From Gemmatimonadota bacterium (GTDB lineage: Bacteria; JBHIER01; G020348925): 64,000 bases of DNA. The position numbers and the translations under genes are program-made. A model generated the notes under the pieces. It searched no databases. It saw nothing but the letters and a program-made list of their open reading frames with translations, and had not been told where the DNA came from. The stretch lies in contig CP070758.1 of NCBI GenBank assembly GCA_020348925.1, positions 1,834,030-1,898,029 of the forward strand. Direction: 5' to 3'. Below, one piece after another: positions 4,236-45,030 of the stretch (positions within the stretch are counted from its first letter, which is position 1; each line of letters starts with the position of its first letter).

Positions 4236-4280
4236 TGGTAGGAGATTGATGCTCGAGAGCATCACAAAGTGGAAGAAGAG

Positions 4281-10700: not shown

Positions 10701-11707
10701 CCCAGCTCACAAAGATCTGGGAGAAGGTTCTGGAGATTCAGCCCATCGGAGTTAGAGACAATTTCTTTGAACTGGGTGGGCACTCTCTGCTCGCAGTTCG
10801 CCTATTCTCGGAGATCAAGAAGGTCTTGGGAGTAAACTTCCCCCTATCCACCCTGTTTCAGGATTCAACTGTTGAAGATCTGGCCCATGTTATTCGCCAG
10901 GAGGCGTGCTCAGAGCCCTGGTCCTGTCTGGTACCGGTTCAGCCCGGCGGGACCAAGGTTCCATTCTTCTGTGCTGCACCGGCGGCCGGGGAGGCAATCG
11001 GCTTCGCCAACTTAGCCAGGTGTTTGGGATCTGAACAACCCTTCTACGGCCTGGAGCTTCCCACACCGGTTGGAGCACTTTCTGACCCACGAATTGAGGA
11101 TATGGCTGCTGAATGTATCCGGGAAATAAAAACGCTCCAGCCCGAAGGCCCCTATCTGTTGGGGGGAGCATGCATGGGAGGCCTGGTCGCTTTCGAGATG
11201 GCCTGCCAGCTTCACCAGCAAGGGAATGAAATCGCCGTGCTGGTTCTGTTGGATTCGAGCCAACCGGCTCCTCTGATAACGCTGCGGGATTATATCTCCC
11301 TTTTATTATTCCACCATTTGCCGCGTGGACATATGGCCTACTGTCTGATGAACGATTTGAGGGAGAAAGGAAGAAAATTGAAGCGGAAGTTCCTCTTGAG
11401 CCGTGAGGGTCGACGTTTCAAAAGTGTCTGGAAAGCTCATGAAAGAGCCCGGAGAACCTACGTGCCACGCCCTTATCCGGGGCGGATCACGCTCTTTGAG
11501 AGCCGGGAGTTCCATATTCGTTTTCCCGATTACGTGAATCGGTGGTCGGCCCTGGCTGAGGGAGGATTGGATCGCCACATCATACCCTGTGGCCATCGCG
11601 AAACCCTGAGAGAACCCCATGTCCGCATCGTCGCCGAGGAACTGAAAGCGCGCCTCAATGGAAAACTAATGAACGATGAAGGACATGGTAGCGCGATTAC
11701 CACATAA
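7697..11707 (+). CDS. NRPS terminal module of line 1, C-A-T-TE
   Basis: Condensation domain (about 35-470) with intact HHIVSDG, adenylation domain (about 490-960; IYTSGTTGLPK, NAYGPTEAT), carrier domain (about 1000-1070, ELGGHSLLAV) and type I thioesterase (about 1085-1325). By-eye pocket residues are D-A-N-F-T-G-A-I-R plus Lys. The thioesterase nucleophile position is Cys1159 in GGACMGG, where Ser is usual; the Asp of LLDSSQ and the His of CGHRETLREPHV complete the triad. The gene is translationally coupled to the preceding module (four-base overlap) and followed by a 446-base gap, so it closes an acyl-aa-aa line. Its A domain is close to that of the protein at 31634, and its TE is close to those at 15575 and 39515. 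Confidence 0.9.
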   Translation: MSGDQRAVGKVQFTPIMTPVSNKEAHEYSEEVFVFPTSFAQQRLWFLDRLEPQSPAYNIPIALRLKGRLNVRALERSFNEIVRRHEVLRTTFAEMDGQPVQVIAPSLRWRLKLVDVQELPEADREIETRRLAAEEAQRPFDLAQGPLLRTTLVRLKEKEHVLLLTVHHIVSDGWSTGILFREISVFYESFSAGKTSPLSELPIQYADFAVWQREWLQGETLEAQLSYWREQLAGAPPSLEFPTDRPRPLMQTYRGTRQFLVLSEKLTETIKALSQRAEVTPFMTLLAAFSVLLKRYTGQDDIVVGTPIAGRNRPEIEGLIGFFVNTLVMRTDLSGNPGFLEVLGRVREVCLGAYAHQDVPFEKLVEELRPERNLTQSPMFQVMFVLQNATDSALELKDVTLNSLEVDTGTAKFDLALSVIDGAEGLNGILYYNTDLFDAPTINRILKHYENLLEGIVADPEQTVSTLPLLTETERNRILVEWNDTVTDYPSTSCIHQLFEAQVERTPEAIAVQCEKKQLTYRELNARANQLAHYLQTHGVAPEVLVGICLEPSLDMVVGMLGILKAGGAYVPLDPAYPKERLTFMLSDSGASILLTHKTLSDNLPEHHARSIFLDSDLIRISQEEMGNPVCGATAWNLAYLIYTSGTTGLPKGVLIEHRGLCNLVESVKHYIGLKPGRRVLLSYSFGFDASANPIFTTLCSGATIYLAPANFLLRGTGIFQTMRHQAITDAFFPPSFLAALPFEPLPLLQTLTVGAEACPAVVISRWAPGRRFFNAYGPTEATIRATVAECTGDDWRPTIGRPIANTQVYILDRHLQPVPIGVPGELHIGGVGLARGYQNQPELTAEKFIPNPFGDEPGARLYKTGDLARSMPDGTIDFLGRFDHQVKIRGSRIELGEIETTLGQHPAVREVVVTVQAHESGDNRLVAYVVADQHTAPTVRELRSFLQEKLPEYMVPSTFVMLAGLPLTPHGKVDRQALPAPDRITSDLERTFIRARDALESQLTKIWEKVLEIQPIGVRDNFFELGGHSLLAVRLFSEIKKVLGVNFPLSTLFQDSTVEDLAHVIRQEACSEPWSCLVPVQPGGTKVPFFCAAPAAGEAIGFANLARCLGSEQPFYGLELPTPVGALSDPRIEDMAAECIREIKTLQPEGPYLLGGACMGGLVAFEMACQLHQQGNEIAVLVLLDSSQPAPLITLRDYISLLLFHHLPRGHMAYCLMNDLREKGRKLKRKFLLSREGRRFKSVWKAHERARRTYVPRPYPGRITLFESREFHIRFPDYVNRWSALAEGGLDRHIIPCGHRETLREPHVRIVAEELKARLNGKLMNDEGHGSAITT

Positions 11708-12153
11708 TATACCTGATCAGCACTGTTTGCGGATGGTTGGTGGCAGATGATGGGCAAAGCCTTTCGCGGCGGAACTGAACTTCTCTGGTCGGTTTCCGAA
11801 CGTTGTCCAGTGAGCCGGAGGTTGTGCAGAACTCGTACCAGACATGCCCAAGAGGATATCCCTTTTGGTTTTCTCTATAAGAAAAGAGAGAAAAATGACA
11901 GAGAATTATTGTCTGTCGTTTAAAGAATGATTTTATTATGGATATTGGTTTTAGAATAGTCTTGATCTGACTTTGACATACTCTCGATTTCGATGAAGAG
12001 CACCATGAAGCTCGAATCCAGATTTATGATGAATATGAACGATCGAGCGGCGCTGAGACCGATATCGATATCAATGGCGACACGTGCAATGCTCGCATTC
12101 AGTTTCACGCGATACATCCAGTGGTCCGAAATTCAGAAAAGAAAGGTGAGGTG
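11708..12153 (+). other. 446-base gap between NRPS lines 1 and 2
   Basis: No gene is supported here. A weak hairpin, TTTTCTCT and AGAGAAAA around a ten-base loop, lies at 11869-11894 but is AT-rich and lacks a clear terminator run. The second half is AT-rich and could hold the promoter of the 12154 operon; I found no good -35/-10 pair. Confidence 0.4.
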
Positions 12154-12879
12154 ATGTATATCAATCAGGGTGTTTGCACTCAATGCACATTATGTGTTCC
12201 GTATTGTCCCATGAGAGCCATTGCCAGCGATGAAACAACAGGACACGTTGAGATCGACCAGGAAGAATGCGTGGAATGCGAGAGCTGCTTGAGGGCGGAT
12301 GTCTGCTCCAAGGGTGCATTGACCATGCCAGTGCTTGGTTGGCCCAGGATTCTGCGAAATCGGTTCTCAAACCCTTTGACAACTCATCCGGACACCGGAA
12401 TTCCGGGAAGAGGCACCGAAGAAATGAAAACCAATGAAGTTACCGGCAGGTTCACCCGGGATCGAGTGGGAATATCCGTAGAGTTAGGCCGCCCTGGAAC
12501 CGGAACACGATTCTATGACGTTGAAAAAGTCGCCATGGCCGTTGCCCGGCTTGGTGTTCGGTTTGATCCCCATAATCCTGTGACGTGCCTGATGGAGGAT
12601 ACGACCACAGGTAAGATGAGGGAAGACGTTCGGGGTGAAAAAGTTCTATCGGCCATCATAGGATTCGATCTGCCCCGAGAGAAGATTGTACCGGTGTTGG
12701 ACAAACTGAAGGAAGTGACATTCGATATTGACACCGTCTTCAGCCTGGATCTGGTCTGCAGGATGGAGGAAGACGAGAGCAATGCAACCATTACGTTGTC
12801 AAAGGAGAGGGGCTTCATTCCGTCGATAAACGGGAAAGTGAACGTGGGTCTGGGGAAACCTCGAGCGAGGGAGGATTGA
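12154..12879 (+). CDS. Two-cluster 4Fe-4S ferredoxin-type protein with conserved unknown C-terminal domain
   Basis: Residues 1-55 hold two ferredoxin motifs, CTQCTLCVPYCP and CVECESCLRADVC, the second with an unusual extra residue before the last Cys. Residues about 75-241 form a separate conserved domain beginning PGRGTEEMKTNEVTGRF and containing GRPGTGTRF, whose family I recall only as an unnamed companion of ferredoxin domains. It is likely a cytoplasmic electron carrier or subunit for the neighbouring protein at 12881, one base downstream. ATG 12154 is chosen over GTG 12121 because AAAGGTGA precedes it and the ferredoxin starts immediately. The two genes are coupled to the A-T and C-A-T-TE genes that follow, so they probably make or modify a building block. 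Confidence 0.75.
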   Translation: MYINQGVCTQCTLCVPYCPMRAIASDETTGHVEIDQEECVECESCLRADVCSKGALTMPVLGWPRILRNRFSNPLTTHPDTGIPGRGTEEMKTNEVTGRFTRDRVGISVELGRPGTGTRFYDVEKVAMAVARLGVRFDPHNPVTCLMEDTTTGKMREDVRGEKVLSAIIGFDLPREKIVPVLDKLKEVTFDIDTVFSLDLVCRMEEDESNATITLSKERGFIPSINGKVNVGLGKPRARED

Positions 12880-12880
12880 A

Positions 12881-13564
12881 ATGACACACACCCTGCACCG
12901 TTTGGGAAACCCTCAGAGTTTGAGAAAGGATTTTATTGTCCTTGCCATTGCCTCGCAGATCGCTGGCCCCGTGGGGAGTGCCTACAAGTTCAGGGAATTT
13001 GCAGACATAGTATTAAAATACAATCCGTTGAATTTCGGAGACATGATATCCGGAAACATGTTTCAGATGGACTTAGATACGATCCACGCTGGTTACTGCG
13101 ACAATTCTATCGTTCATGCCGTCTTTACCGACGAACATATTGTGGCAAACGTATTGAAGGAATTGAAAGACGCCGATCTGGGACTCTCCATCGTCGTATC
13201 CGGTTTATTGGAACAGACGGCAACATGCTGCAGCACTGCAGGTTTGAAACCACACACTGTTCAATACTCGCTGGGGATCTTGGGGCGAACCGATCTCTTG
13301 CCACAGCCCTGGGTTTTGGAGATGAGTACGATGTGCGGCCACGGCATGGTAGCCTTCTCGCTCATTATAGAACTGGCAGATCGGGTAAAAGATCAGCGGA
13401 TTACGGCAGAAGAGGCGGCGCAAGGATTGGCAAGACAATGTCATTGCGGAGTCTTTAATCCTGACCGAGCAACCGGGATTCTGAAAAGGATAGTGACGAA
13501 AAAAAGCGGGAAAACCCAAGCTTCGAAGGCGTTCGAGAATGAACATGATGAAGCTCTTCGATGA
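12881..13564 (+). CDS. Unknown cysteine-rich protein coupled to the 4Fe-4S protein
   Basis: A 227-residue soluble protein I cannot assign. Its cysteines and histidines cluster in motif-like blocks: TATCCSTAG, STMCGHGMV and RQCHCGVFNPDRA, the pattern of a metal- or cluster-binding enzyme. There is no signal peptide and no membrane segment. The start has GGGAGG about six bases upstream and lies one base past the stop of the 4Fe-4S gene; its own stop overlaps the start of the A-T synthetase gene. The likely role is a redox enzyme fed by the 4Fe-4S partner and acting on an NRPS precursor or carrier-bound unit. That role is inferred from gene order alone. Confidence 0.65.
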   Translation: MTHTLHRLGNPQSLRKDFIVLAIASQIAGPVGSAYKFREFADIVLKYNPLNFGDMISGNMFQMDLDTIHAGYCDNSIVHAVFTDEHIVANVLKELKDADLGLSIVVSGLLEQTATCCSTAGLKPHTVQYSLGILGRTDLLPQPWVLEMSTMCGHGMVAFSLIIELADRVKDQRITAEEAAQGLARQCHCGVFNPDRATGILKRIVTKKSGKTQASKAFENEHDEALR

Positions 13565-15585
13565 GGATCCTGTCACATGGTGAAAGGCGAATGAATCGTA
13601 TGATCAATCATAAAACCGATACTCCCTCGTCACAAAAATCTGTTGGGAGCGGCCGCATCCGACCGACAAATCCTTTCATTCAATTTAAGAAAGAAGAAGT
13701 CGAGCAATCGATTCCTACCCGATTTGAGCAACAGGTGCGACAATACCCCGATCGGATGGCCATTAAGAGCAGGGACCACACGTTCACTTACGAGTCGCTC
13801 AACCAAGCAGCCAATCGAGTGGCGTGGGCAATTTGCGATCGTCACTCCCATGGCCATGATCCGATCGCTCTGTTGCTCGAACACGATGCACCAGCTCTCA
13901 TTGCAATGTTGGGTGTGCTGAAGGCCGGCAGGATATACGTGCCATTGGATCCGGGGTACCCTCCTGAACGACTCAGCTATATACTGGAGAATTGTCAGGT
14001 AGGACTCATCGTGACCAACAGCAAAAATCTCTCCCTGGCGAAAAAACTGACTCAAGATGCACTTACACTGCTCAATATTGATGATTTCAGTACCAGTCTC
14101 TCCACTGAGAACCTTGACCTCAAAATCTCACCGGACTCAGTCACCCACATCCTTTATACATCAGGCTCAACAGGAAAACCGAAAGGGGTTCCTCAGCTTC
14201 ATCGCAATGTTCTTCACGAAATTATGAACTATACAAACGCTGCTCATCTTTCCACGGAAGACCGAATGCTTCTTGTCTCCAGCTTCAGTTTTGGTGACTC
14301 AGTGAGGACTATTTACGGTGCTCTGCTCAATGGCGCTTCCCTCTTTCCACTGAACATCAAAGAGGAAGGATTCGTCTCTCTTTCCGACTGGATGATTGAG
14401 CAAGAGATCACTATTTACCGCTCGGTCCCGACAGTATTCCGGCATTTCGCCCGTACCCTGAGTAGAAAGATGGACTTCCCCGTAATTCGTTTGATCTACT
14501 TGGCGGGTGAACCCGTGTACAGAAGAGACGTGATGCTCTATCGAGATCATTTCTCGTCAGACTGTATTCTTGTCAATGGGCTGGGGAGCATCGAATCCCT
14601 CACATACCGATGGTATTTTCTCGACAAGAACGTCCACATCACGGGTACCAACGTGCCGGTTGGCTTTGCCATTGACGACATGGAGGTCCAATTGCTCGGA
14701 GACAACGGAAAGGAGGTTGGCGTCAACGAAATCGGTGAGATTGCAGTCAAGAGTCGCTATCTTTCCCCTGGTTACGGGCAAAACCCTGATCTCACGCGGC
14801 AGAAATTCCGGCCGGATCCAAAGGGGGGAGACGAACCCATTTATCTCACCGGAGATCTCGGTCTCTTGCTGCCCGACGAATGCCTCGTTCACATGGGTCG
14901 AAAGGACTTTCAGGTTAAGATCAGGGGCTACAGGGTGGAGACTGCTGAGATCGAGATGTTGTTGATGGAGTTAGACACTGTCAAAGAAACGGTTGTTGTG
15001 GCCCGGACGGATGCGTCTGGAGATAAATATCTGTCAGCGTATGTTGTTCCCATCGGAGACCCGGGGCCTGCAGTCGGCGAACTTCGGTCTTTTCTGGAGG
15101 GTCAGCTCCCCGAATACATGATGCCCTCGACCTTCGTCCTGTTGGATGCCATACCGCTGACTCCGAATGGTAAGGTCGATCGTCAGGCTCTGCCCGCGCC
15201 AGACGGCACGAGACCGTTATCGGATAATGCTTTCGCAGCTCCTGGCACGCCGCTTGAAGAAAGGATTGCAGATATCTGGGTCAAGGTTCTGGGATTAGAC
15301 CAAGTCGGAGTTCAGGACAACTTCTTCGAGCTGGGGGGGCACTCGCTGTCAGCAATACAAGCTGTGTCCAGGATGAGCGAAGCGTTCCAAGTGGCGTTGT
15401 CCCTCAGCAGCTTCTTCGAGACACCAACGATTGCTCAACTATCCAGGAAAATTGAGAGCATCAGGAGCGAAGGTGCTGGACCTCGGCCGCCTGCACTATC
15501 GCGGGTCCGCCGAGATTCGCACCATGCGAAGCTGTCCTCACAGGGAGTACCTGTGTCTATTGAGGATACACAGAATGAGGAATAA
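13561..15585 (+). CDS. NRPS A-T protein with non-canonical adenylation domain
   Basis: Adenylation domain (about 45-540; ATP motif LYTSGSTGKPK) and carrier domain (about 565-635, ELGGHSLSAI). The position equal to GrsA Asp235, which binds the alpha-amino group, is Gly245 (SFSFGDSV), and the usual YGPTE motif reads GLGSIES. This places it in a divergent A-domain group, together with the protein at 24846, and argues against an ordinary alpha-amino acid. The Lys of NGKVDR is present. No condensation domain: a starter for line 2. The tail resembles a linker to a C domain and the next gene starts inside this one. The start at 13561 overlaps the previous stop (ATGA); Met codons at 13591 and 13600 are alternatives and would fit the N-terminus of the 24846 protein better. 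Confidence 0.85.
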   Translation: MRILSHGERRMNRMINHKTDTPSSQKSVGSGRIRPTNPFIQFKKEEVEQSIPTRFEQQVRQYPDRMAIKSRDHTFTYESLNQAANRVAWAICDRHSHGHDPIALLLEHDAPALIAMLGVLKAGRIYVPLDPGYPPERLSYILENCQVGLIVTNSKNLSLAKKLTQDALTLLNIDDFSTSLSTENLDLKISPDSVTHILYTSGSTGKPKGVPQLHRNVLHEIMNYTNAAHLSTEDRMLLVSSFSFGDSVRTIYGALLNGASLFPLNIKEEGFVSLSDWMIEQEITIYRSVPTVFRHFARTLSRKMDFPVIRLIYLAGEPVYRRDVMLYRDHFSSDCILVNGLGSIESLTYRWYFLDKNVHITGTNVPVGFAIDDMEVQLLGDNGKEVGVNEIGEIAVKSRYLSPGYGQNPDLTRQKFRPDPKGGDEPIYLTGDLGLLLPDECLVHMGRKDFQVKIRGYRVETAEIEMLLMELDTVKETVVVARTDASGDKYLSAYVVPIGDPGPAVGELRSFLEGQLPEYMMPSTFVLLDAIPLTPNGKVDRQALPAPDGTRPLSDNAFAAPGTPLEERIADIWVKVLGLDQVGVQDNFFELGGHSLSAIQAVSRMSEAFQVALSLSSFFETPTIAQLSRKIESIRSEGAGPRPPALSRVRRDSHHAKLSSQGVPVSIEDTQNEE

Positions 15586-19964: not shown

Positions 19965-22187
19965 ATGAGATCACTCTTGTTTTTTAGTCTACTCCTGTTC
20001 GCCGCTGCATCTTATGTTTTCTCACAAGAAATGCAATCACAAAACCAAGACTCCTTACAGGCATCAGAAGAGGTGAAAGTCGAGTTCGAACCCATTGTTG
20101 TCACTGCCACACGTTCTGAACGTCCAATTCTTAGGGTTCCGTATGCGATTGACGTTATTGGGGAGGAAGAAATACAACGAGCCGAGACCGGTCTTTCCCT
20201 CGATGAAGCAGTGCGTGCTGTACCGGGTATTGTTGTGAATAGCCGACACAACCGGGATCGAGGTGACCGGATTATTATACGGGGGATAGGCAGCCGTGCC
20301 CAGTATGGTGTGCGCGGTATCAAAGTCATTCTCGATGGAATACCACTCACCTTGCCCGATGGTCAATCGCTGTTACATAATCTCGATCTCGGTTCGGTGG
20401 GCAAAATTGAGATTCTCCGCGGTCCCAGCTCGTCCCTGTATGGCAATGCAGCCGGTGGACTCATCGACATTCAGACTCAGTCCGCACCATCTACACCATA
20501 TCTGTTTCAACCTCGATTTGTCGTCGGCAGTGATGGCCTTCTGAAATGGCAGGGCAAACTCTCAGGTACTGTTGGAAGACATGACTATCTCATCAATGCA
20601 AACAAGTTGACGCTTGATGGATACCGTGAACATTCCTCTGCCAGTTCTTATTCCGTCAATGCAGTGGGCCGTCACAGGATCTCGGATCAAGTCAGAATGA
20701 CGACTGTACTGAACTACATCTATGCACCATATCTATTAAATCCCGGATCCGTATCAAAGACGGATGCCATCAATGTTCCATCCAAAACGAGTTTTTTTAA
20801 CAAACAAAGGGCCTACGGACGCAGCAATGAACGACAAGGTCAGGGCGGAATATCCATGATATATGATGATGGCCATGCCAACCAATTTGCCGTAAGTATC
20901 TATGCCTCATCGTATTCCTACATCGTTGCCATTCCTATAGAAATCATCGACCTTGATTGGATTTCCGGTGGTATGCGCACTGTCTTCAGCAAACGGTTTC
21001 AAATTGGAAACACAAACCTTCTCTGGACGATCGGGACTGACATCGAGGCGTACGATGGAAGGAGAGTGGAGTTCGAGAATCAGGGGATACCAAGCGATCA
21101 AGTTGGAGTGGCGGAAGGAAGCGAAATTTACGATTTGTTGAAATACGGCCAACGCCTTTCGGATCAGGATGAAAGGGTGTTTGGTGTAGGCTCCTTCACT
21201 CAGTGTGAGATTTCACTCCATCCTCAATGGGACCTCATCCTTGGAGGACGATACGACTATTACAAATTCAAGGCAAGCGATCACTTTATGGAGGATGGTG
21301 TGAACCATTCCGGAACGAGAAACATGGACAGGTTCAGTCCCAGGGTTGGGATCATCTACCAGCCATACGAACTCGTCAAGGTATATGGAAACTATTCCAC
21401 TGCTTTTCAGACTCCCACGACCACCGAATTGGGCAATCAAGTGACAGGGGTAGGCGGATTCAATCCCGATCTGAAACCGGAGAGTATGCGAAGCTTTGAG
21501 ATAGGAATACAAGGCATGCAACCCTTTGGTCAAAAGAAATTTCCGGGAAGACGATTCGAGTACGACCTCTCTTTTTACATGCTCAATATTGAGGACATGT
21601 TGATCCCATTTCAAATACAAGGGACATCGGAAGAGTTTTATCGTAATGCCGGGAAAACACAAAATAAAGGTGCGGAGATACAATTGAACTGGTCTCCGAT
21701 CAACGGACTGCGAACGTCCCTCGCCTACACGTTCATGGACTTCGTGTTTAAGGATTATACGATCGAGACCTCAGTGGATGATACCACCGTTCAGCTCTTT
21801 CAGTTGAAAGGGAAGGAAGTCCCGGGAGTTCCACCGCAGCAAATTTTCGCTGGCATTGCCTATCGGCTTCCGGTTGGAGCGTACTCGGAAATCAAGCTCA
21901 ATTGGGTGGATCGATACTTTGCCAATGATTATAACGGACCTCCTCCAGACAACACCAAATCCTCAACTAATTTTTTCAATGATACCTACTTCGTTGTTGA
22001 TCTCCGTTTAGGAATCCAACAAACATTCACCAAAATTGGAATCGAAATCTTTTCCGGGATCAATAACCTCTTTGATGAACGCTACAACAGTTCGGTCGTT
22101 CCCAACGCCTTTGGCGATCTGTTTTTCGAGCCCGCGCCCGGGCGGAGCTGGTACTCCGGAATTCACATCTCATTTTCTGGAGGATAA
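19965..22187 (+). CDS. TonB-dependent outer membrane receptor
   Basis: A 740-residue receptor with a signal peptide (MRSLLFFSLLLFAAASYVFS), a TonB-box-like segment EPIVVTATRSE, and a plug domain (about 50-165: SLDEAVRAVPGIVV, RIIIRGIGSRAQYGVRG, LDGIPLTLPDG, KIEILRGPSSSLYGNAAGGLIDI). The rest is a beta-barrel that includes the usual late block GVEL-like NLFDERYNSSVV and ends in PGRSWYSGIHISF plus SGG. It transports a ligand across the outer membrane using TonB energy. ATG 19965 is used because GGAGGA lies eight bases upstream and the signal peptide starts there. It is followed 79 bases later by the periplasmic binding protein and ABC importer genes, giving a complete two-membrane uptake route inside an NRPS locus. 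Confidence 0.9.
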   Translation: MRSLLFFSLLLFAAASYVFSQEMQSQNQDSLQASEEVKVEFEPIVVTATRSERPILRVPYAIDVIGEEEIQRAETGLSLDEAVRAVPGIVVNSRHNRDRGDRIIIRGIGSRAQYGVRGIKVILDGIPLTLPDGQSLLHNLDLGSVGKIEILRGPSSSLYGNAAGGLIDIQTQSAPSTPYLFQPRFVVGSDGLLKWQGKLSGTVGRHDYLINANKLTLDGYREHSSASSYSVNAVGRHRISDQVRMTTVLNYIYAPYLLNPGSVSKTDAINVPSKTSFFNKQRAYGRSNERQGQGGISMIYDDGHANQFAVSIYASSYSYIVAIPIEIIDLDWISGGMRTVFSKRFQIGNTNLLWTIGTDIEAYDGRRVEFENQGIPSDQVGVAEGSEIYDLLKYGQRLSDQDERVFGVGSFTQCEISLHPQWDLILGGRYDYYKFKASDHFMEDGVNHSGTRNMDRFSPRVGIIYQPYELVKVYGNYSTAFQTPTTTELGNQVTGVGGFNPDLKPESMRSFEIGIQGMQPFGQKKFPGRRFEYDLSFYMLNIEDMLIPFQIQGTSEEFYRNAGKTQNKGAEIQLNWSPINGLRTSLAYTFMDFVFKDYTIETSVDDTTVQLFQLKGKEVPGVPPQQIFAGIAYRLPVGAYSEIKLNWVDRYFANDYNGPPPDNTKSSTNFFNDTYFVVDLRLGIQQTFTKIGIEIFSGINNLFDERYNSSVVPNAFGDLFFEPAPGRSWYSGIHISFSGG

Positions 22188-22266
22188 TTTAATTTTTTGT
22201 TCACTGACGGAAAGACTGTCGAATCACTTGAAGTACAATCCGCTTATTACGAAAAGGAACTCATGA

Positions 22267-23295
22267 ATGATCCTACTTTTATGCAGGGATCGGGTATCGA
22301 TCTTCTCCATTTTTATGTTACTACTGCCAGTCGTTCTCTCTTATGGAGGTGAGCGACAACCATCAGAGCCTGTACCGTTAAAGGTTGTGACCATGCCGTA
22401 TCTCGGATACGCACCCTTCTTCATCGCCGATGCGGAGGGGTATTTCGCGGAGCAGGGACTTGATGTCCAGTTCATCAGGATGAATAGAACAGCAACCCTT
22501 ATTCCGGCTCTTATTCAAGGCGACATCGATGTCCTTTCCGGGACCATTTGGCCGAGCCATTTCAACGCCATTGCTCGTGGTGCCAGAATACGGTTCGTTG
22601 CCAACAGAAGCTATGTTGATACCTCAGGCTGTATCTATTCGGCGGTCGTCGCCAGGCGGGATTTGATTGAACATGGGGATCTGCAAAATCCGGCCCAACT
22701 GCGAAACCTGCGGATCAGCGTACCTCCATCGTCCCACATGGGGTATTTCATCGAGAAGCTCCTCAGTCGGGCAAACATGACGCTCCATGATGTGGAAATC
22801 GTGGACCATCTTCCTGCGGTAGAACTTGAAGCTTTTCGAAAGAACACCATAGACTTGGCTTTTATGACAGAGCCTTGGCTGACTCGAATAGTGAATACCG
22901 GCCATGGCGTCATCTGGTTGCCGGATAGAAAAGTTGTTCCCGGTTTTCAGTGGGGATTCATTCTCTATGGCCCCTCCCTTTTGGATAAGAATCCGGATGC
23001 GGGGAGACGTTTTCTGGTCGCGTATTTCAAGGCGGTCCGACAGTACAATCGAGGAAAAACAGAACGTAATGTGGATATCCTGAGTCAATATACCGAATTG
23101 GATCGAGATCTCTTGGAAAAAGCGTGTTGGCCGTCTTTACGCGAGGATGGATACATAAACTTTGAACACCTCATTGACTTCCAGGACTGGGCAGTGAGAA
23201 AAGGGTTGCTTGACAGAAAGCTCGCGGAGGATGAGTTTTGGGATCACGCCTTCGTTGACTACGCAACCAAAATGCTACATATACAGAAGCAATAA
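22267..23295 (+). CDS. ABC transporter periplasmic substrate-binding protein, NitT/TauT (SsuA/NMT1) type
   Basis: A 342-residue exported protein: signal peptide over residues about 10-28, then the family start LKVVTMPYLGYAPFFIADAEGYFAEQGLDV, the ligand loop ALIQGDIDVLSGTI and the second-lobe motif IDLAFMTEPWLTR. Relatives bind sulfonates, taurine, nitrate, aromatic acids or thiamine-precursor pyrimidines; the ligand cannot be told by eye. Genes for the ATPase (14 bases on) and the permease follow. The ATG at 22263 is out of frame; 22267 is used. Confidence 0.85.
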   Translation: MILLLCRDRVSIFSIFMLLLPVVLSYGGERQPSEPVPLKVVTMPYLGYAPFFIADAEGYFAEQGLDVQFIRMNRTATLIPALIQGDIDVLSGTIWPSHFNAIARGARIRFVANRSYVDTSGCIYSAVVARRDLIEHGDLQNPAQLRNLRISVPPSSHMGYFIEKLLSRANMTLHDVEIVDHLPAVELEAFRKNTIDLAFMTEPWLTRIVNTGHGVIWLPDRKVVPGFQWGFILYGPSLLDKNPDAGRRFLVAYFKAVRQYNRGKTERNVDILSQYTELDRDLLEKACWPSLREDGYINFEHLIDFQDWAVRKGLLDRKLAEDEFWDHAFVDYATKMLHIQKQ

Positions 23296-23309
23296 ACCTG
23301 AAGACGCTT

Positions 23310-24086
23310 ATGTTATTAATGTGTCGCAGTTTGGGCAAGATATATCGAACTCGCAATGGTGTTACCACTGCTCTCAAAGACGTGAGTCTCAGTGTCGGTG
23401 AACAGGAATTCGTTTGCATTGTCGGACCCAGTGGATGTGGGAAAACAACGCTTCTCAAACTCATTGCTGGATTATTAGAACCGACTTCAGGAAGAATCAT
23501 CTTCGGGGCGGGGGAAAAAAACGGGAGACTTCGGAGTGCGATGGTGTTTCAGGAACATGGCCTTTTCCCCTGGATGACCGTGTTGGGCAATGTCGCCTTC
23601 GGACTGGAGATGCAGGGTATCTCGCAGCATGAATGTCGAGATCGAGCGCACGATTTCATCGAAAAGGTAGGTCTGGGATTTTTCACGCACAGTTATCCGC
23701 ATGAACTATCCGTCGGAATGTGCCAGCGAGTCGGCATCGCCAGGGCTTTTGTGGCTGATTCTCAAATATTACTTATGGACGAGCCCGTTGGCTCCCTCGA
23801 CACCCAAACACGGCTCGTGCTTCAAGAGGAGCTGTTGAGGATCTGGGTGGAACACCGGAAATCAATCATCTACGTGACACATGATATCGAGGAAGCGATT
23901 TGGTTGGGGGATCAGGTACTGGTGATGACCGGACGGCCAGGTCAAATCCGAGAGGAGATCCAGATCCCTCTTAGACGCCCTCGAAACCCATTAAACAGTA
24001 ATCGACAGGAAATCTCGGAGATCAAATGGCATATCTGGAAGATACTCGAAGAGGAAGTACGAAAGAGCCTCTGCATACCGACTTGA
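23310..24086 (+). CDS. ABC transporter ATP-binding protein, SsuB/TauB type
   Basis: A 258-residue ATPase that powers the importer. Walker A is GPSGCGKTT (39-47), the Q-loop is Gln81, Walker B is ILLMDEP (153-159) and the switch His is His191. The signature motif reads LSVGM (133-137) where the family almost always has LSGGM: the first signature Gly is Val. The rest of the motif context (QRVGIARAF) is intact, so the protein is probably functional but unusual. The gene follows the binding protein by 14 bases and overlaps the permease by 61. Confidence 0.85.
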   Translation: MLLMCRSLGKIYRTRNGVTTALKDVSLSVGEQEFVCIVGPSGCGKTTLLKLIAGLLEPTSGRIIFGAGEKNGRLRSAMVFQEHGLFPWMTVLGNVAFGLEMQGISQHECRDRAHDFIEKVGLGFFTHSYPHELSVGMCQRVGIARAFVADSQILLMDEPVGSLDTQTRLVLQEELLRIWVEHRKSIIYVTHDIEEAIWLGDQVLVMTGRPGQIREEIQIPLRRPRNPLNSNRQEISEIKWHIWKILEEEVRKSLCIPT

Positions 24087-24853
24087 AAGAGAGATTACTC
24101 CTTGGGTGGTGGCTGCCAACTATGACGGTCGTTGTAATATTGATTGTATGGGAATGGTTGGTCCGCTCGGGCGAACTTTCAGCTCTTTTTTTCCCGGCAC
24201 CTTCAATGATCGTCCAAGCTTTTGTCCGTTTGCTTACCAGCGGCAAGTTGATTACCGAGGTTCGCATCACTTTAATGCGAGCCCTGTTGGGATTGGTACT
24301 CGGCGGTATAAGTGGCATGGTCTTAGGTTTGCTCATGGGCTGGTCTCAGAAGTTGCGCATTCTCGTCGATCCCTTCATTGCAGCTGCTCACCCAATCCCC
24401 AAAATTGCTATTTTGCCGTTGATTCTGATCATCTTTGGCATCGGTGAAACGTCCAAAGTGATCGTAATCGCTGTGGCTGCATTCTTTCCCATGTTAATCA
24501 ACACAATGGCCGGTGTGCGGAACATTCATCCCATCCATTTTGATGTGGCAAAAAACTATGGTGCCTCTTTGAGAAAAACTTTTTCTCGCGTCATCGTGCC
24601 GGGCAGTTTACCGCTTGTGCTAACAGGACTACGCTTGGCCTTTAATGCCGTGTTGTTGCTCACGATTGCCGTCGAATTAGTCGTTGCTCAGAAGGGATTA
24701 GGAAGAATGATCTGGTTTGCCTGGGAGACCATGCGAACCGAAGAACTTTACGTCGGTCTGATTGTCACAGCAGCATTAGGGATCGGTTTTAACTTCGTAT
24801 TACACTCTATAGCAAAACGTCTCATCCCCTGGCGGAGAACTCAAATTGAATAA
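24026..24853 (+). CDS. ABC transporter permease, SsuC/TauC type
   Basis: A 275-residue inner membrane protein of the binding-protein-dependent transport family. About six hydrophobic helices are visible, the first near WWLPTMTVVVILIVWEWLV. The coupling loop AAKNYGASLRKTFSRVIVPGSLPLVLTGLRLA (family EAA motif, starting DVAKNYGAS) lies in the second half. The start at 24026 has GGAG five bases upstream and overlaps the ATPase gene; a TTG at 24083 is a possible shorter start. Its stop overlaps the start of the A-T-TE synthetase, so transport and activation genes are translationally coupled. Confidence 0.85.
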   Translation: MAYLEDTRRGSTKEPLHTDLKERLLLGWWLPTMTVVVILIVWEWLVRSGELSALFFPAPSMIVQAFVRLLTSGKLITEVRITLMRALLGLVLGGISGMVLGLLMGWSQKLRILVDPFIAAAHPIPKIAILPLILIIFGIGETSKVIVIAVAAFFPMLINTMAGVRNIHPIHFDVAKNYGASLRKTFSRVIVPGSLPLVLTGLRLAFNAVLLLTIAVELVVAQKGLGRMIWFAWETMRTEELYVGLIVTAALGIGFNFVLHSIAKRLIPWRRTQIE

Positions 24854-27467
24854 CGTACCAAAGCGCATTACTCCAACAAATTCTTTTATTCCATTTCGCG
24901 ATGAAGAGGTCGAACAGTCGGTTCCCGAACGTTTCGCGCAAATCGTGAGACGGTATCCTGATCGCGTTGCAGTCGGATCAGGCAGTCAATCTTTCACGTA
25001 TCGTGACCTGGATAAGGCATCCGATCAAGTAGCGCAAGCTGTTTTCGGTATGGGTGGGACCGGAGCAGAACCTGTAGCCCTGTTGCTCGATCACGGCCCA
25101 ATGCCAATTATTGCAATGTTGGGGATCTTAAAAGCGGGCAAATGTTACGTGGCATTGGATGCCACAAGCACTCGTTCAAGATTGGAGTACATCCTGAATG
25201 AGACCCAGACACGTACGATTGTCACGAACCAGAGACGGTATTCTCTTGCAGCCGAGCTGTCGCCCCACGGATGTCAATTGCTCAATATTGATGATCTCGA
25301 ACCATACAATTCGAGTCAAAAGCTCGACATTTCTATTTCACCGGATGCGTTGGCGGCTATTTACTACACCTCAGGTTCGACGGGACAGCCCAAGGGTGTT
25401 ATCAATGCGCATCGCAACATGCTTCATTCCGCCAAGTTAAAAACCAATGATTGCCACATTTGTTCGGATGATCGGGTGGCCCTTCTTTTCTCTTACAGCG
25501 TCGCTTGGTCCAAAGCGCTTATCTTTGCTCCACTCTTCAGTGGAGGAGCCATCCTCCCCTTCGACATCGGGTCAGAGGGGTTGAAACGTCTCTCCCGCTG
25601 GCTCATTCGCGAAGAAGTCACAATTTTTACAACGGTTACAACACTCTTTCGGAATTTCATTGAGACCTTGACCGGGGATGAAAAATTTTCGAAACTCCGT
25701 TTGGTCTCAATAGGCGGTGAAACGGTTCACAGACAAGATGCGGAATTATACAGGAAGCATTTTTCTCAAAATTGCCTGCTGCACATTGGCATGGGAATAA
25801 CGGAAGCTTGCAGCCCCATGACTTCCATCTTTCTCGATAAATCCACCGAGATCAACGGGGACGTCGTTCCGATAGGGTATCCTCTTGAGAATACCGAAAT
25901 ACTCCTGTTCGATGAGGACGGGGAAGAGGTCGAACACGATCATATTGGTGAAATTGCAGTTAAGAGTCGGTATCTTACCCCTGGCTATTGGCGAAAGCCG
26001 GAGTTGACGGCCCAATCCTTTCAATCCTGTCCTGGGGAAGAACCTGTCCGTATTTATCGGACAGGTGACCAGGGCCGCATGGCATCCGACGGTTGTCTCT
26101 ACCATCTGGGCCGGAAAGACTTTCAGGTGAAAGTGAGAGGGCATAGGGTCGAGACTGCCGAGGTCGAGAGAGCTCTGCTCAACATAGGGATCATCTCTCA
26201 GGCGGCAGTAGTGACACATCCTGATGCCCAAAGCGAAAACCGACTCGTAGCTTACATTGTATGTAACCAGACACCCAAACCGACGGTTACTCAGTTGCGG
26301 TTGCTATTAAACGAAACTCTCCCTGCATACATGATGCCGTCGAATTTTGTATTCGTGGACGTGCTGCCGATGACAATAAGTGGGAAAGTAGATTTTCAGG
26401 AACTATCAATCCCGGATGTATCACGGCCTGAACTCGACTCCCCTTTCGTTCCGCCGCGTTCGTCGATCGAGAGACGCCTCATCGAGATATGGAGTGAAAT
26501 CCTGAACGTCTCACCCATTGGTGTTTGCGACGACTTCTTCGACCTCGGCGGACATTCCATATCTGCGATGCGTCTCTTCACGCTCATTGAGAAGAGATTC
26601 GGCAAAAAACTTCCCGTATCGATTTTATTCGAAGCCCCAACGATAGAGATGTTAAGTGCTGTTCTCGACAAAGAACATGAGTCCGGGCGCTGGTCCTCTC
26701 TCGTGCCTATTCAAAGGGGGGGATCGAAACCGCCGTTTTTTTGTGTCCACAACCTCAGTGGGGATGTCCTATCATATGGTGAACTGGCGCGGAACCTTGG
26801 TCCGGATCAACCCTTTTACGGATTACGAGCGCAGGGCTTGGATGGAAAACAGAAACCGTACACCAAGATTGAAGCGATGGCTTCTCATTACATCAGGGAG
26901 ATGCGTGCCGTTCAGCCGGAAGGACCGTACCTCCTTGGGGGTATGTGCTTTGGGGGCGTGGTGGCCTTCGAGATGGCTCAGCAGCTTCACGCTCTGGGCC
27001 AGGAGGTTGGACAGTTGTTTCTTCTGGATACATCCTGTCCCCCCTTCAATTTAAAACAACGTCTCAATTTCATATTTGAACGTTACACCCGGATTTTCAG
27101 AGAAGGTATCCTTGACGCGTTGAGTCGCTCATCGCCTACTTCGTGCACCTCCAAACAGCACGGGTTCCTAAAGCGCCATCGCTCAATCTCTGACATATTT
27201 CAGATACTTCGGGTCGATCGGGCGAACAACCGGGCTCTACGAAAATACAGACCTCAATGTTATTCCGGCCGTCTTGTCCATTTCCTGGTAAGTCAACCGT
27301 TAGTGTCTGTTTCACCGGATTCACGAAAGAAATGGGAGACATATGCGAGAGGAGGTCTCGAAGTCCACACCATTCCCGGGGATCACCACACTGTCCTCAG
27401 AGAGCCACACGTTCACTTACTCGCCAAAAAGTTGAAAGAATACCTTAACACAGAACCATCCGGATAA
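24846..27467 (+). CDS. Stand-alone NRPS A-T-TE protein with non-canonical adenylation domain
   Basis: Adenylation domain (about 15-510), carrier domain (about 540-605, DLGGHSISAM) and thioesterase (about 620-865). ATP motif YYTSGSTGQPK. The GrsA Asp235 position is Ala220 (YSVAWSKA) and the YGPTE motif is GMGITEA, so an ordinary alpha-amino acid is unlikely. The domain belongs to the same divergent group as the A-T protein at 13561. The thioesterase has Cys701 in GGMCFGG as nucleophile, with LLDTSC and GDHHTVLREPHV. With no condensation domain it could release, dimerise or cyclise a single activated acid, or hand it over. It starts at TTG 24846 with GGAG eight bases upstream and overlaps the permease stop. 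Confidence 0.85.
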   Translation: MNNVPKRITPTNSFIPFRDEEVEQSVPERFAQIVRRYPDRVAVGSGSQSFTYRDLDKASDQVAQAVFGMGGTGAEPVALLLDHGPMPIIAMLGILKAGKCYVALDATSTRSRLEYILNETQTRTIVTNQRRYSLAAELSPHGCQLLNIDDLEPYNSSQKLDISISPDALAAIYYTSGSTGQPKGVINAHRNMLHSAKLKTNDCHICSDDRVALLFSYSVAWSKALIFAPLFSGGAILPFDIGSEGLKRLSRWLIREEVTIFTTVTTLFRNFIETLTGDEKFSKLRLVSIGGETVHRQDAELYRKHFSQNCLLHIGMGITEACSPMTSIFLDKSTEINGDVVPIGYPLENTEILLFDEDGEEVEHDHIGEIAVKSRYLTPGYWRKPELTAQSFQSCPGEEPVRIYRTGDQGRMASDGCLYHLGRKDFQVKVRGHRVETAEVERALLNIGIISQAAVVTHPDAQSENRLVAYIVCNQTPKPTVTQLRLLLNETLPAYMMPSNFVFVDVLPMTISGKVDFQELSIPDVSRPELDSPFVPPRSSIERRLIEIWSEILNVSPIGVCDDFFDLGGHSISAMRLFTLIEKRFGKKLPVSILFEAPTIEMLSAVLDKEHESGRWSSLVPIQRGGSKPPFFCVHNLSGDVLSYGELARNLGPDQPFYGLRAQGLDGKQKPYTKIEAMASHYIREMRAVQPEGPYLLGGMCFGGVVAFEMAQQLHALGQEVGQLFLLDTSCPPFNLKQRLNFIFERYTRIFREGILDALSRSSPTSCTSKQHGFLKRHRSISDIFQILRVDRANNRALRKYRPQCYSGRLVHFLVSQPLVSVSPDSRKKWETYARGGLEVHTIPGDHHTVLREPHVHLLAKKLKEYLNTEPSG

Positions 27468-27619: not shown

Positions 27620-28207
27620 ATGTCCGGAGAGGAAAAGGAAGACACCACGATCTATGAGGTGGTTGTGAATCACGAAGAACAATACTCCATCTGGCCGCAA
27701 TATAAAGGCGATCCGCCAAAAGGTTGGAAAAAAGTTGGAAAAAACGGACTGAAAGAGGACTGCTTGGCCTATGTCAAGGAAGTATGGACCGACATGCGGC
27801 CACTGAGCCTGAGAAAACAAATGGAGGAGGCCGCCCGGAAGCCCGGGGACCGGAAAACTTCGAAGAAAGAAGAGCCTGGCGGAGAAACTCTGGTACAACG
27901 TCTGTCCAAAGGGGATCATCCTGTGGAAGCGAGCTTGCGACCGGAAAAGACCGTGCACGCTTTCAAAGAGAGTATCGACCGTGGCTACGTGCATATCAAG
28001 TTTACGGGTACCAGAGGAGGCACAGAGCTGGGCTTCAGGCTTGATGCGGAGGCTACCGATTTGGGCCAGGCCGATTTCGACACACACACAGGAAGCGTCC
28101 ACCTTGTTGGCAGCTTGACCCTCGATTATGTCAAAGTACGGTGCGTCGCCGATGTCGACCTGAGCACCCTGGCCGGGAAAGGACATCTCGAAATTGAAGA
28201 GTCCTGA
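27620..28207 (+). CDS. MbtH-like protein fused to an uncharacterised C-terminal domain
   Basis: Residues about 8-68 are a complete MbtH domain ([40 protein letters not shown]), the small partner that many NRPS adenylation domains need for folding and activity; its conserved tryptophans are present. MbtH proteins are usually 60-75 residues, but this one has 195. After a charged linker (70-95), residues about 96-195 form a separate domain with [18 protein letters not shown], then [21 protein letters not shown] and GHLEI, predicted soluble beta-rich. I have no name for it. The gene sits between line 3 and line 4 with its own promoter. GGAG lies ten bases before the ATG. Confidence 0.85.
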
Positions 28208-42500: not shown

Positions 42501-43516
42501 GCATCAAACCCATCGGTGTCAGGGACAGCTTCTTCGATCTGGGCGGACATTCACTTCTCGCAGTGCGCTTGTTCGCACAGATCGAAAAGATGCTTGATAA
42601 AAAACTTTCCCTGGCAAATCTCCTCGAGGCACCGACGGTTGAGCAGCTCGCTGGCCTTCTTCGCCAGGAAGGCGAGCCAGCACACTGGTCTTCATTAGTG
42701 GCCATTCAATCCGAAGGCACCAAACTGCCCTTCTTCTGGGTACCTCCGGCCGCGGCTGATGTCATCAGCTTGGCAGATCTCGCCAGGCATCTGGGACCGG
42801 ATCGACCCTTCTATGGACTCCAACCTCTGGGATTGGAGGGGAATCAATCTCCCCATGCCCACGTTGAGGAGATGGCCGCCCATTATATAAAAGAAATACG
42901 CAACATTCAGTCTGAAGGTCCTTATCTTTTGGGAGGAATCTGTTTCGGAGGCATTGTGGCGTTCGAGATGGCTTGCCGGCTTCATGAGCAAAATGACTCT
43001 GTGGCTTTCCTTGCTCTCTTGGATTCCAGTCAGCCACCCCCCCTGATATCGCTGCGGGATTATGTTCCCCGTTTACTCCTCCACCATTTACCGAGGGGAC
43101 AATTGACCTACTGTCTCAAGAAAGACCTGAGAGAGAAGGGAACAAAGTGGAAATGGAAGCTGTCCCGGAGTCATGGAGGCCGCCGTTTCTACAGGGTGTG
43201 GAATGTTCATGAAACGGCACGGAGAGCATACGTACCCCGTCCTTATCCGGGTCGGATCACCCTCTTTGAGAGCCGCGAATTTCGCATTCGTTTTCCCGAT
43301 TACGAGGCCCGGTGGTCCGCGCTGACCGAGGAGGGTTTGGATTGTCACACCATAGCGTGCGATCATGGCGATTTCCTGCATGAACCCTATGTCCGGATCG
43401 TCGCCGAGAAATTGAAAAACTGCCTCGAGGGTGTACCCTCTCAGAACGATGCTGGGAGAAATAAAAAGACTGCGTTGTCAAGAGCCCCCATTATAAACAG
43501 GGAGTTGTTAGGTTGA
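39515..43516 (+). CDS. NRPS terminal module of line 4, degenerate C, A, T, TE
   Basis: Condensation domain (about 5-440) with the motif changed to H140-R-I-I-A-D-N146: the second, catalytic His is Arg141 and the Gly is Asn, so condensation is probably lost or altered. Adenylation domain (about 465-950): YYTSGSTGIPK present, Asp235 position is Thr660 (GFTPFGAE), core motif YGTTEAP. Carrier domain (about 980-1045, DLGGHSLLAV). Thioesterase (about 1060-1310) with Cys1143 in GGICFGG, LLDSSQ and CDHGDFLHEPYV. ATG 39515 has GGGAG nine bases upstream and overlaps the previous stop; the open frame reaches back to 39446. The TE is a close relative of those at 7697 and 15575. Confidence 0.88.
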   Translation: MSERSPLYPTSCAQQQLWFQAQLDPESHVSNIASAVRLHGSLRVPALERSLDEIARRHKALRTTFLTRAGQLKQVVAQSSIPRLPVHDLTVFPESEREDEARRLLTEKARRPFDLATGPLFLAGILRLGVDDHILFTVMHRIIADNWSLGIFFQEFFILYEAYSTGKSSPLPELTTQYHKFAQWQCKWMKSKSAEEQLSYWKQRLAHVPFTVNLPTDGSRHGSRRIHQGATQSLMLPESLSHSLRALSHQEEVTLPTILLAAWHVLLYRYTNQGEIVVGFTTEGRRRSGMEEPIGLCSNILALRMPPVRDNPAFRELLKRMRGVILEAYANQDVPFENVMEELQSQGDLDRTPQFQVAFQFDHRPDVASKPHGLDVKDFEFEKGISRHDVTLKIVEKVEELSCSFEYNTDLFEATTIARMGWHFKRLLEGIVDQPDEVISDLPLLTEGEWHQLLVEWNTVRVENFKEEFYHRSFEFQAERLSDAVAVVFEGEHLTYQELNVRANQLAHYLQALGVGPDVLVGMCMERSPELVVGVLATLKAGGACVPLDPTFPEDWFAFVLEDTDVQVVLTQDRLLKKLAGHTGHVICLDSAQENWDRESTENPVRDITSENLSFVYYTSGSTGIPKAVMQPYRKVDTTESLVSFTEEDRHLFKASIGFTPFGAEILTPLMTGGKMIIAEPGRSQDSTYLVPLITKHTVTYISVVPAMLRMLLEQDEIETCRSLKHVLSFGEPLPHDLRERFFTRTAANLYVLYGTTEAPSATFKMCQRGDDASSSGGFSIGRRLSGNRIHIMSLMGGMQPVPIGVPGELCCSGFNLARGYLNRPDLTAERFVPDPVGDEPGARLYKTGDLARYLPDGNIEFLGRIDHQVKLRGLRIELAEIEAILRQHVTVFEVAVVMREDEPGNNRLAAYVVPNQGSTISISELRSFLRVKLPEYMVPSAFVELDALSLTRNGKIDRQALPAPDRVRPEQGRAFIAPRDALENHLVKIWEKLLGIKPIGVRDSFFDLGGHSLLAVRLFAQIEKMLDKKLSLANLLEAPTVEQLAGLLRQEGEPAHWSSLVAIQSEGTKLPFFWVPPAAADVISLADLARHLGPDRPFYGLQPLGLEGNQSPHAHVEEMAAHYIKEIRNIQSEGPYLLGGICFGGIVAFEMACRLHEQNDSVAFLALLDSSQPPPLISLRDYVPRLLLHHLPRGQLTYCLKKDLREKGTKWKWKLSRSHGGRRFYRVWNVHETARRAYVPRPYPGRITLFESREFRIRFPDYEARWSALTEEGLDCHTIACDHGDFLHEPYVRIVAEKLKNCLEGVPSQNDAGRNKKTALSRAPIINRELLG

Positions 43517-45030
43517 AGAGAGATTCCGTTCGGCCCGAGAGTCGAGGTTCAGCGTTCACGCAACAGAACTATTCCCCTGGGGGTGCGATGATTGGGGGAA
43601 CGCTGGTACTCACGGGATCCCGGATGGTCTTTTTTGTGTGTGGTTACATTGTCCACGTTTTCCTGGCGAGATATTTACAGCCACAGTTGTTTGGCGTCTG
43701 GGGAGTCATTCTCGGAATCCTGACCGTCTATCAGATGATCGTAATGTCAGGACCTTCGAAGGCCATTTCAAAATTTACAGCGGAAAGAGCAGATCAAGCT
43801 CGATCGATTCAAAATCAGGGGTTGAAGATCCAGATCATTTTATCCGGCATACTGTGCGTATTCATGGGCATCGCAGCACACTGGATTGCGCGGCTACTCA
43901 AAGATTTGACACTGACTCCATATATTCGCGCCACAGTCTTTTTCTTTCCTGTCTATGCCTTGTATGCGGTCTATCTGGGTACGCTCAATGGGCTGCGTGC
44001 CTTTGATCGACAAGCACTGGTCATGACAGCTTACTCCTTGCTGCGAATGATAGGAATCGTGGCTCTCGTTCTGTTGGGCTACCGGGTGTACGGGGTACTG
44101 GGTGGCAGTTGGCTGGCCATGTTCGTAGCAATCTTCATCGCTCGTCGTTTCTGCACGTGTCCGGTAGCAGATCATACCTTTGAAGGGCAGCGAATTATTC
44201 GGTTCGCTCTTCCCGTGAGCTTCTTCGCCCTGGCCTTGGCCGCTTTTTCAAATCTCGACATTTTCCTTCTCAAAGCTCTCCTGGGAAGTAATGAGGATGT
44301 GGGGTTCTACACGGCCGCCGTCGTTCTTGTCAAAGTACCGTATCTGTTGCTCTTCGGGCTCAATACGACGCTGTTTCCGGTGGTGGCGCAATCCTTGTGG
44401 GACCCTACGTACTCCAAAGCGAAATTCTATATCAGCCGCTCACTGCGCTATGCTCTCCTCATCGTAACACCCACTGCGTTTGTAACAGCGGCCACTTCGA
44501 GAGAATTGATCCTCCTTATATACACATCACAATACATCTCCGCCTCGGAACCGCTCCGGATCCTCATTTTCGGGTATGTTTTTGCTTCGATCTTTATGAT
44601 CGCGTCAACAGTAATTATGGCCGTGGGGAAACCGAGGATCGCCATGGGTATCGTGTTCCTGATGGTTGGTTTGGACTTTGTACTCAATTATGCATTGATC
44701 CCCCAGTTCGGATTGACCGGTGCCGCGCTGGCGACATCTGCGGCCGCATTCATCGGCGTTTTCGGAGGACTGGCGTATATCTTTCGAAGATTCGGTCAAC
44801 TCTTGAATCCCATATCACTTGTAAAAATCACCGGTGTCTCAATTGGACTCTGTGTGCCTTGTGTTTTTTTCGATATGAGGGGCATGTGGTTATTGATATA
44901 TTACGCGGTTGCGATCGTTCTCTATATTGGTTTCCTGGCTCTTCTCAAGGAGCTCGGAGAAGAGGAATGGTCGATTTTCAAACGCGCCTTTGTTCCACAG
45001 ACAGTCCGGAAGCGCCACAACGGATCATGA
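43513..45030 (+). CDS. Oligosaccharide/lipid flippase (Wzx/MATE-like polysaccharide biosynthesis protein)
   Basis: A 505-residue integral membrane protein with 12-14 hydrophobic helices spread evenly and an opening GGAMIGGTLVLTGSRMVFFVCGYIVHVFLARYLQPQLFG typical of the MOP flippase superfamily. Relatives move lipid-linked sugars or lipopeptides across the inner membrane. It starts at TTG 43513, overlapping the stop of the last synthetase (TTGA), so it is co-translated with the terminal module and probably exports the product or its lipid-linked precursor. A glycosyltransferase gene follows six bases later. Confidence 0.8.
   Translation: MKRDSVRPESRGSAFTQQNYSPGGAMIGGTLVLTGSRMVFFVCGYIVHVFLARYLQPQLFGVWGVILGILTVYQMIVMSGPSKAISKFTAERADQARSIQNQGLKIQIILSGILCVFMGIAAHWIARLLKDLTLTPYIRATVFFFPVYALYAVYLGTLNGLRAFDRQALVMTAYSLLRMIGIVALVLLGYRVYGVLGGSWLAMFVAIFIARRFCTCPVADHTFEGQRIIRFALPVSFFALALAAFSNLDIFLLKALLGSNEDVGFYTAAVVLVKVPYLLLFGLNTTLFPVVAQSLWDPTYSKAKFYISRSLRYALLIVTPTAFVTAATSRELILLIYTSQYISASEPLRILIFGYVFASIFMIASTVIMAVGKPRIAMGIVFLMVGLDFVLNYALIPQFGLTGAALATSAAAFIGVFGGLAYIFRRFGQLLNPISLVKITGVSIGLCVPCVFFDMRGMWLLIYYAVAIVLYIGFLALLKELGEEEWSIFKRAFVPQTVRKRHNGS

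Follow-up and report, generated by a model that had tools for sequence, protein, structure and literature searches.

A clade of NitT/TauT-type binding proteins whose genes lie beside acid-activating enzymes in several bacterial phyla

Our analysis of the window, a stretch of 64,000 nucleotides from a Gemmatimonadota bacterium, and of related loci in other genomes shows that genes of an ABC importer lie directly beside a gene for an acid-activating enzyme in at least four phyla. The linkage is specific to one clade of periplasmic binding proteins (SBP) and is conserved across phyla. We consider it somewhat probable that these genes import a carboxylic acid lacking an amino group and load it onto a carrier, from which it is transferred to lipid, glycan or peptide.

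The five-gene run of the window

Five intact genes form one co-directional run on the + strand, from 19965 to 27467, and the Pfam matches of all five exceed the curated cut-offs. The first encodes a TonB-dependent receptor for the outer-membrane step (TBDR; 19965..22187, +; PF00593, 163 bits; PF07715, 70 bits). Its start is most likely the ATG at 19965, which is preceded by an AGGAGG site. Next come a NitT/TauT-type (NMT1_2) SBP belonging to a distinct clade (22267..23295, +; PF13379/PF09084), the importer ATPase (23310..24086, +; PF00005, 113.9 bits) and the importer permease (24026..24853, +; PF00528, BPD_transp_1, 86.3 bits). The reading frames of ATPase and permease overlap by 61 bases (24026-24086). 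The last gene (24846..27467, +) encodes a predicted acid-loading protein of the A-T-TE type with AMP-binding, AMP-binding_C, PP-binding and Thioesterase matches in Pfam: the A core lies at 24936-25991, the A C-terminal subdomain at 26160-26387, T at 26472-26663 and TE at 26733-27413 (+). The permease stop codon (TAA, 24851-24853) falls just inside the A-T-TE gene, which starts with TTG at 24846, so that the two genes overlap by 8 bases; a GGAG Shine-Dalgarno sequence stands 8 nt upstream of this TTG (CGGAGAACTCAAATTG). Coordinates and Pfam matches thus agree with the earlier note on this DNA, which had described both this run of five genes and an overlap of the permease stop with the synthetase start.

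An NMT1-type SBP, an ABC_tran ATPase and a BPD_transp_1 permease in one operon define a NitT/TauT (NMT1-type) ABC importer, and we infer the direction of transport from this family. The AlphaFold model of the SBP (mean pLDDT 91.9) is nearest to 3un6, TauA, SsuA and the CmpBCD regulatory domain among solved folds, with PqqT lower in the list. Families of the TauA/SsuA/CmpBCD/PqqT type bind small anions and organic acids; the ligand of PqqT is PQQ. In SBP fold and in ATPase and permease families, the importer resembles TauABC, SsuABC, ThiXYZ and CmpABC. Unlike these, it scores far below the cut-offs of all the curated equivalog models, and its SBP belongs to a clade linked with ANL enzymes. Assignment as a taurine or sulfonate importer was rejected on such scores (SsuA_fam 50.6 against a cut-off of 163.5, TauA 26.1 against 304, TauB 217 against 357, and TauC 137 against 342).

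PqqU, for PQQ uptake, is the nearest NCBIfam model of the TBDR, but the match scores 292 bits, below the cut-off of 1200, and the receptor is therefore not PqqU. The PqqU/PqqT system still resembles the window genes: it handles an organic acid with a TBDR and a binding protein that shares this general fold. Besides the receptor score, it differs in that PqqT ranks below the top fold matches of the SBP and in that, within the part of the source consulted, PqqU/PqqT is described without linkage to a synthetase (PMC12124388). A siderophore uptake operon was also discarded, as the FecB/FepB-type SBP (PF01497) and the FecCD permease are absent and NMT1_2 and BPD_transp_1 proteins are found here.

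Binding-protein-linked loci in other genomes

The window genome (G000) is one contig of 5.04 Mb, and searches by genus and phylum returned this genome alone. Since it has no placed relatives in the genome set, we sought relatives through SBP similarity and collected loci by this similarity only, without regard to their neighbours. SBP similarity led to Eisenbacteria-like genomes. A single-sequence search of genome contigs with the SBP gave no matches; an alignment-based search gave matches in Anaerolineae and Acidobacteria genomes. The SBP profile was found in 13 of 396 Anaerolineae-class genomes and in 6 of 347 Acidobacteria-phylum genomes.

The SBP clade is present in 24 genomes (Chloroflexota, Eisenbacteria-like, Acidobacteriota and the window genome). 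In 22 of them, the window genome and 21 others, the SBP gene is accompanied by a gene for an A-T protein or for a second enzyme, here called X. The two exceptions are G542 (L152) and G979 (L183, on a 7-kb contig). The SBPs of L178 and L180 also stand without an A-T or X neighbour, though linked copies exist elsewhere in the same genomes; a contig end truncates L184. For comparison, 56 loci of weaker, ordinary NMT1-type SBPs served as controls: within 4 kb, an A or X gene is found in none of them, a similar ATPase in 45 and a similar permease in 39. Profile matches with E values of about 1e-54 to 1e-72 (G048, G218, G315 and G348) fall outside the SBP clade, and those inspected are unlinked; L185 is a weaker profile match (1.5e-62), yet linked. 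Recurrence in 21 other genomes against 0/56 controls makes the linkage more than a chance association. The earlier note had made its proposal depend on conserved linkage elsewhere, which is what we found across phyla. It had also called for a genome search for the order TBDR-SBP-ATPase-permease-A-T-TE: the association of SBP and acid-activating enzyme is conserved, but this exact order occurs in the window only.

The closest arrangement is that of Anaerolineae bacterium UTCFX2, SBP-ATPase-permease-A-T-TE, which corresponds to the window run minus the TBDR. Its permease stop overlaps the A-T-TE start (ATGA), and its ATPase and permease are 67% and 54% identical to those of the window. No other NRPS or biosynthetic genes were recognised near this run, and we therefore rejected the idea that the linkage arose by accident in the single NRPS cluster of the window. 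Other Anaerolineae loci carry SBP-A-T-TE (L060 and L143) or an SBP and A-T followed by C-A-T modules, A-T being the first module (L148, L149 and L150). In L153, L154 and L156 the A-T protein has a C-terminal LpxL-like acyltransferase domain above the Pfam cut-off; in L155 this domain was recognised by similarity only.

In L147 and L149 the SBP and A-T genes are repeated together, 2:2, with one ATPase-permease pair seen in L149, and L153 retains a remnant of a second SBP/A-T copy. In L155 a single A-T goes with two SBPs, in L060 two A-T go with three SBPs, and the window has one SBP for two A domains of the SBP-linked clade. TBDRs of different families are found in the window and in the Eisenbacteria-like and Acidobacteria loci, whereas every Chloroflexota locus lacks them; this would follow if the TBDR were an addition made in cells that possess an outer membrane. 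In the TBDR-bearing loci other than the window, the PaaK-like enzyme X takes the place of A-T-TE.

Distances between SBPs and distances between A domains are correlated (r=0.78, p=1e-4, n=15). In the 12 complete loci, the correlation is 0.83 for SBP-A, 0.75 for SBP-ATPase, 0.76 for A-ATPase and 0.49 for SBP-permease. Swapping partners within L147 or L149 hardly altered the SBP-A correlation. Because the ATPase correlates almost as well, we dropped SBP-A co-divergence as proof of matched specificity. With SBP-A not clearly above SBP-ATPase or A-ATPase, the distances speak for inheritance of the unit as a whole and do not prove matched specificity.

Acid-activating enzymes and the predicted import and loading of an acid

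In an alignment with GrsA and LgrA, the position equivalent to GrsA Asp235 is residue 220 of the A-T-TE protein and is an alanine (codon 25503..25505, +; LLFSYSVAWSKALIF), as the earlier note had claimed. The A-domain code reads A-W-A-T-S-G-G-S-M, and the A5 motif is GITE where GPTE is usual, so that the A5 proline is absent. The TE motif is GGMCFGG, with a cysteine at the nucleophile position. No close characterised homologue of the A-T-TE protein was found among solved structures. The same losses are seen throughout the relatives: in all 15 readable SBP-linked A domains of the tree set, position 235 is Ala, Glu, Ser, Gly or Val and never Asp, and the A5 proline is absent from all 15. Asp235 is kept by the C-A-T modules of the same loci. 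The SBP-linked A domains group with the A domain of a second window A-T gene at 13561 in a single clade, which is separated from the C-A-T modules with 100/99 support. In A domains for alpha-hydroxy and alpha-keto acids, Asp235 is replaced with small or hydrophobic residues, and in StsA the A5 proline is replaced and activity is abolished once it is restored (reviewed in PMC11253843). The loss of both residues predicts that the substrates of SBP-linked A domains are acids lacking an alpha-amino group. Within the L149/L151/L153-L156 group, six of seven A domains carry Arg322, which could, speculatively, mean a second acidic group on their substrate.

RalA is a non-reducing NRPS-like A-T-TE synthetase, and in furanone/quinone synthetases the TE joins two aromatic alpha-keto acids. 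The window protein resembles AtrA/RalA-type synthetases in its stand-alone A-T-TE order and in its A domain without Asp235. Unlike them, it belongs to a group in which A-T is operon-linked to an importer, its A domain lies in a clade apart from other A domains in these loci, its relatives have an LpxL-like acyltransferase or NRPS modules where the TE would be, and the nucleophile position of its own TE is Cys. For AtrA-type non-reducing NRPS-like A-T-TE proteins (furanone/quinone synthetases), which lack Asp235, a non-amino acid substrate is predicted in the part of the source consulted (PMC9047271).

X is a protein of 530-565 aa encoded at the SBP in the Eisenbacteria-like and Acidobacteria loci and in one Anaerolineae genome. 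It has no match in Pfam, NCBIfam or PDB. Profile-profile comparison (hhalign) aligned it with PaaK/CapK-like AMP-forming enzymes with a probability of 94% and an E value of 1.4e-7, over a region that includes the T-G-G-S-T-G loop (A3-like) and the block F-S-E-V-G-A-V-G-x-x-C. The A3-like loop and an A5-like Y/F-x-x-x-E motif place X in the ANL superfamily. Its AlphaFold model (pLDDT 51.5) was too poor and was set aside. Because of the profile alignment, X is very probably an acid-adenylating enzyme too. A Polysacc_synt flippase gene lies beside nearly all X loci (L047, L048, L049, L050, L059, L144, L179, L182 and L185), and flippase homologues occur in 10 of 30 test loci against 1 of 63 controls. 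Together with the glycan genes found near several X loci, this suggests that the acid is attached to a lipid-linked glycan there.

In the predicted pathway, an acid from outside would enter the window cell via the TBDR and the periplasm; in Chloroflexota, it would be captured by an SBP bearing a lipoprotein signal. From the SBP it would go on to the NitT/TauT-type ABC importer. Once inside the cytoplasm, it would be converted to the acyl-AMP by the adjacent A domain, which has neither Asp235 nor the A5 proline, and loading of the acyl group on the enzyme's own T domain would trap the imported acid. The fate of the thioester may differ between loci: release or transfer by the TE in the window, transfer by the acyltransferase, probably to a membrane acceptor, in the A-T-LpxL-like fusions, and use as the starter unit of an NRPS line where C-A-T modules follow. 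In a parallel form, PaaK-like X would replace A-T, with flippase and glycan genes. Gene content, overlaps, conserved linkage, loss of Asp235 and the A5 proline, domain fusions, co-divergence and clade structure are read from the sequences; we infer that one compound is both ligand of the importer and substrate of the A domain, and what acceptor follows downstream.

E. coli Aas is an acyl-ACP synthetase fused to an acyltransferase, and FadL/FadD carry out vectorial acylation. In L153, L154 and L156 the A-T-LpxL fusions would follow the same course: uptake of an external acid, its activation on a carrier or CoA, and transfer to lipid. Unlike Aas and FadL/FadD, the present loci involve different protein families and an SBP-dependent ABC importer for uptake.

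The earlier note had weighed take-up and loading of an acid against recovery of the released product. The former is better supported because Asp235 is always lost, SBP and A-T genes are duplicated together and three downstream fates are seen, though the exact gene order that had suggested it is confined to the window. The presence of an unrelated ANL enzyme, X, in the place of A-T and the addition of TBDRs of different families in non-Chloroflexota loci also count for import and loading. Unequal numbers of SBP and A-T (window, L155 and L060) and SBPs without an enzyme (L152, L178 and L180) count against it.

Product recovery, the main rival, is, in our estimate, rather unlikely. A-T-TE or X would make a small secreted molecule (metallophore, signal or furanone-like dimer) from an internal acid, an exporter would release it, and TBDR, SBP and ABC importer would retrieve it, with metal. 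TBDR, SBP, ABC importer, synthetase and exporter-like flippase together follow the logic of a siderophore operon, and a flippase beside nearly all X loci fits export and re-import. There is also a precedent in PqqT, a periplasmic binding protein of this general fold that, according to the part of the source consulted, helps cells to retain and recapture the cofactor PQQ that they make themselves (PMC12124388). However, the paired SBP/A-T duplication in L147 and L149 would be needless for one product, the A-T-LpxL-like fusion suggests a membrane-anchored product unable to return through this importer, the SBP is of the NMT1 type, and the four genes of UTCFX2 stand without another recognised biosynthetic gene nearby.

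Salvage or catabolism, in which a scarce acid is imported to supply carbon or a cofactor and is activated by the ANL enzyme only to be trapped, as by CoA-ligases, with no dedicated product, is still less probable. X does resemble PaaK-type ligases, and fatty acids are known to be trapped by activation (FadL/FadD), but degradation genes were not recognised in the locus flanks, and the T, TE and LpxL-like domains and NRPS modules point to biosynthesis. That the genes are neighbours without shared chemistry, the importer having entered NRPS loci accidentally or for the sake of co-regulation, is very improbable, as it is contradicted by linkage conserved across phyla with two unrelated ANL types and by the overlapping reading frames in the window and UTCFX2.

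Import and loading might also, more tentatively, represent a general and undescribed class, importer-coupled acyl-loading, in which each loading A domain has its own SBP, the acids are made by neighbours and several phyla take part. We found no prior description of such an arrangement in the open-access literature that we searched. The component families are known, as is the coupling of uptake to activation; what we did not find there is a binding protein paired, across phyla, with a loading A domain. The usual view is that a cell makes its NRPS starter acids itself. A conserved pairing of an SBP with an acid-activating enzyme would imply that cells need imported building blocks for some natural products and membrane decorations, and substrate predictions could then be tested on two independent proteins. 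If the general class is real, SBP and A-domain sequences would jointly predict the exogenous building block for NRPS starters or for lipid/glycan acyltransferases. The pairing would also give a function to an orphan NitT/TauT SBP clade and to the unannotated 545-aa family X.

Additional genes in the window and in related loci

The second A-T gene of the window (13561..15585, +) belongs to the same A-domain clade, has Gly at position 235 and is 46% identical to the A domain of the A-T-TE protein. It lies upstream of a C-A-T-TE gene and has no SBP of its own. Directly before it, at 12121-13564, are genes for a 252-aa ferredoxin-like protein (4Fe-4S) and for a 227-aa protein without a family; the latter overlaps the A-T start by 4 bases. 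The C-A-T-TE protein at 39446-43516 also has an A domain without Asp235 (Thr), with GTTE as its A5 motif, and falls outside the SBP-linked clade. The NRPS cluster ends with a polysaccharide-type flippase (43513..45030, +; PF01943/PF13440) and a glycosyltransferase at 45037. At 27620-28207, an MbtH-like protein carries an extra C-terminal part of about 140 aa with a weak CBF_beta match (28.2 bits, cut-off 25).

In one Anaerolineae genome, three PaaK/CapK-like ligases surround the X importer locus (L144:2678-4039, 4199-5476 and 9871-11217), one of them between SBP and ATPase. Sulfotransferase and methyltransferase genes were observed inside or beside several importer/A-T or X loci (L148:6729-7574, L154:4916-5671, L148:6019-6726, L154:11172-11888 and L179:8576-9256).
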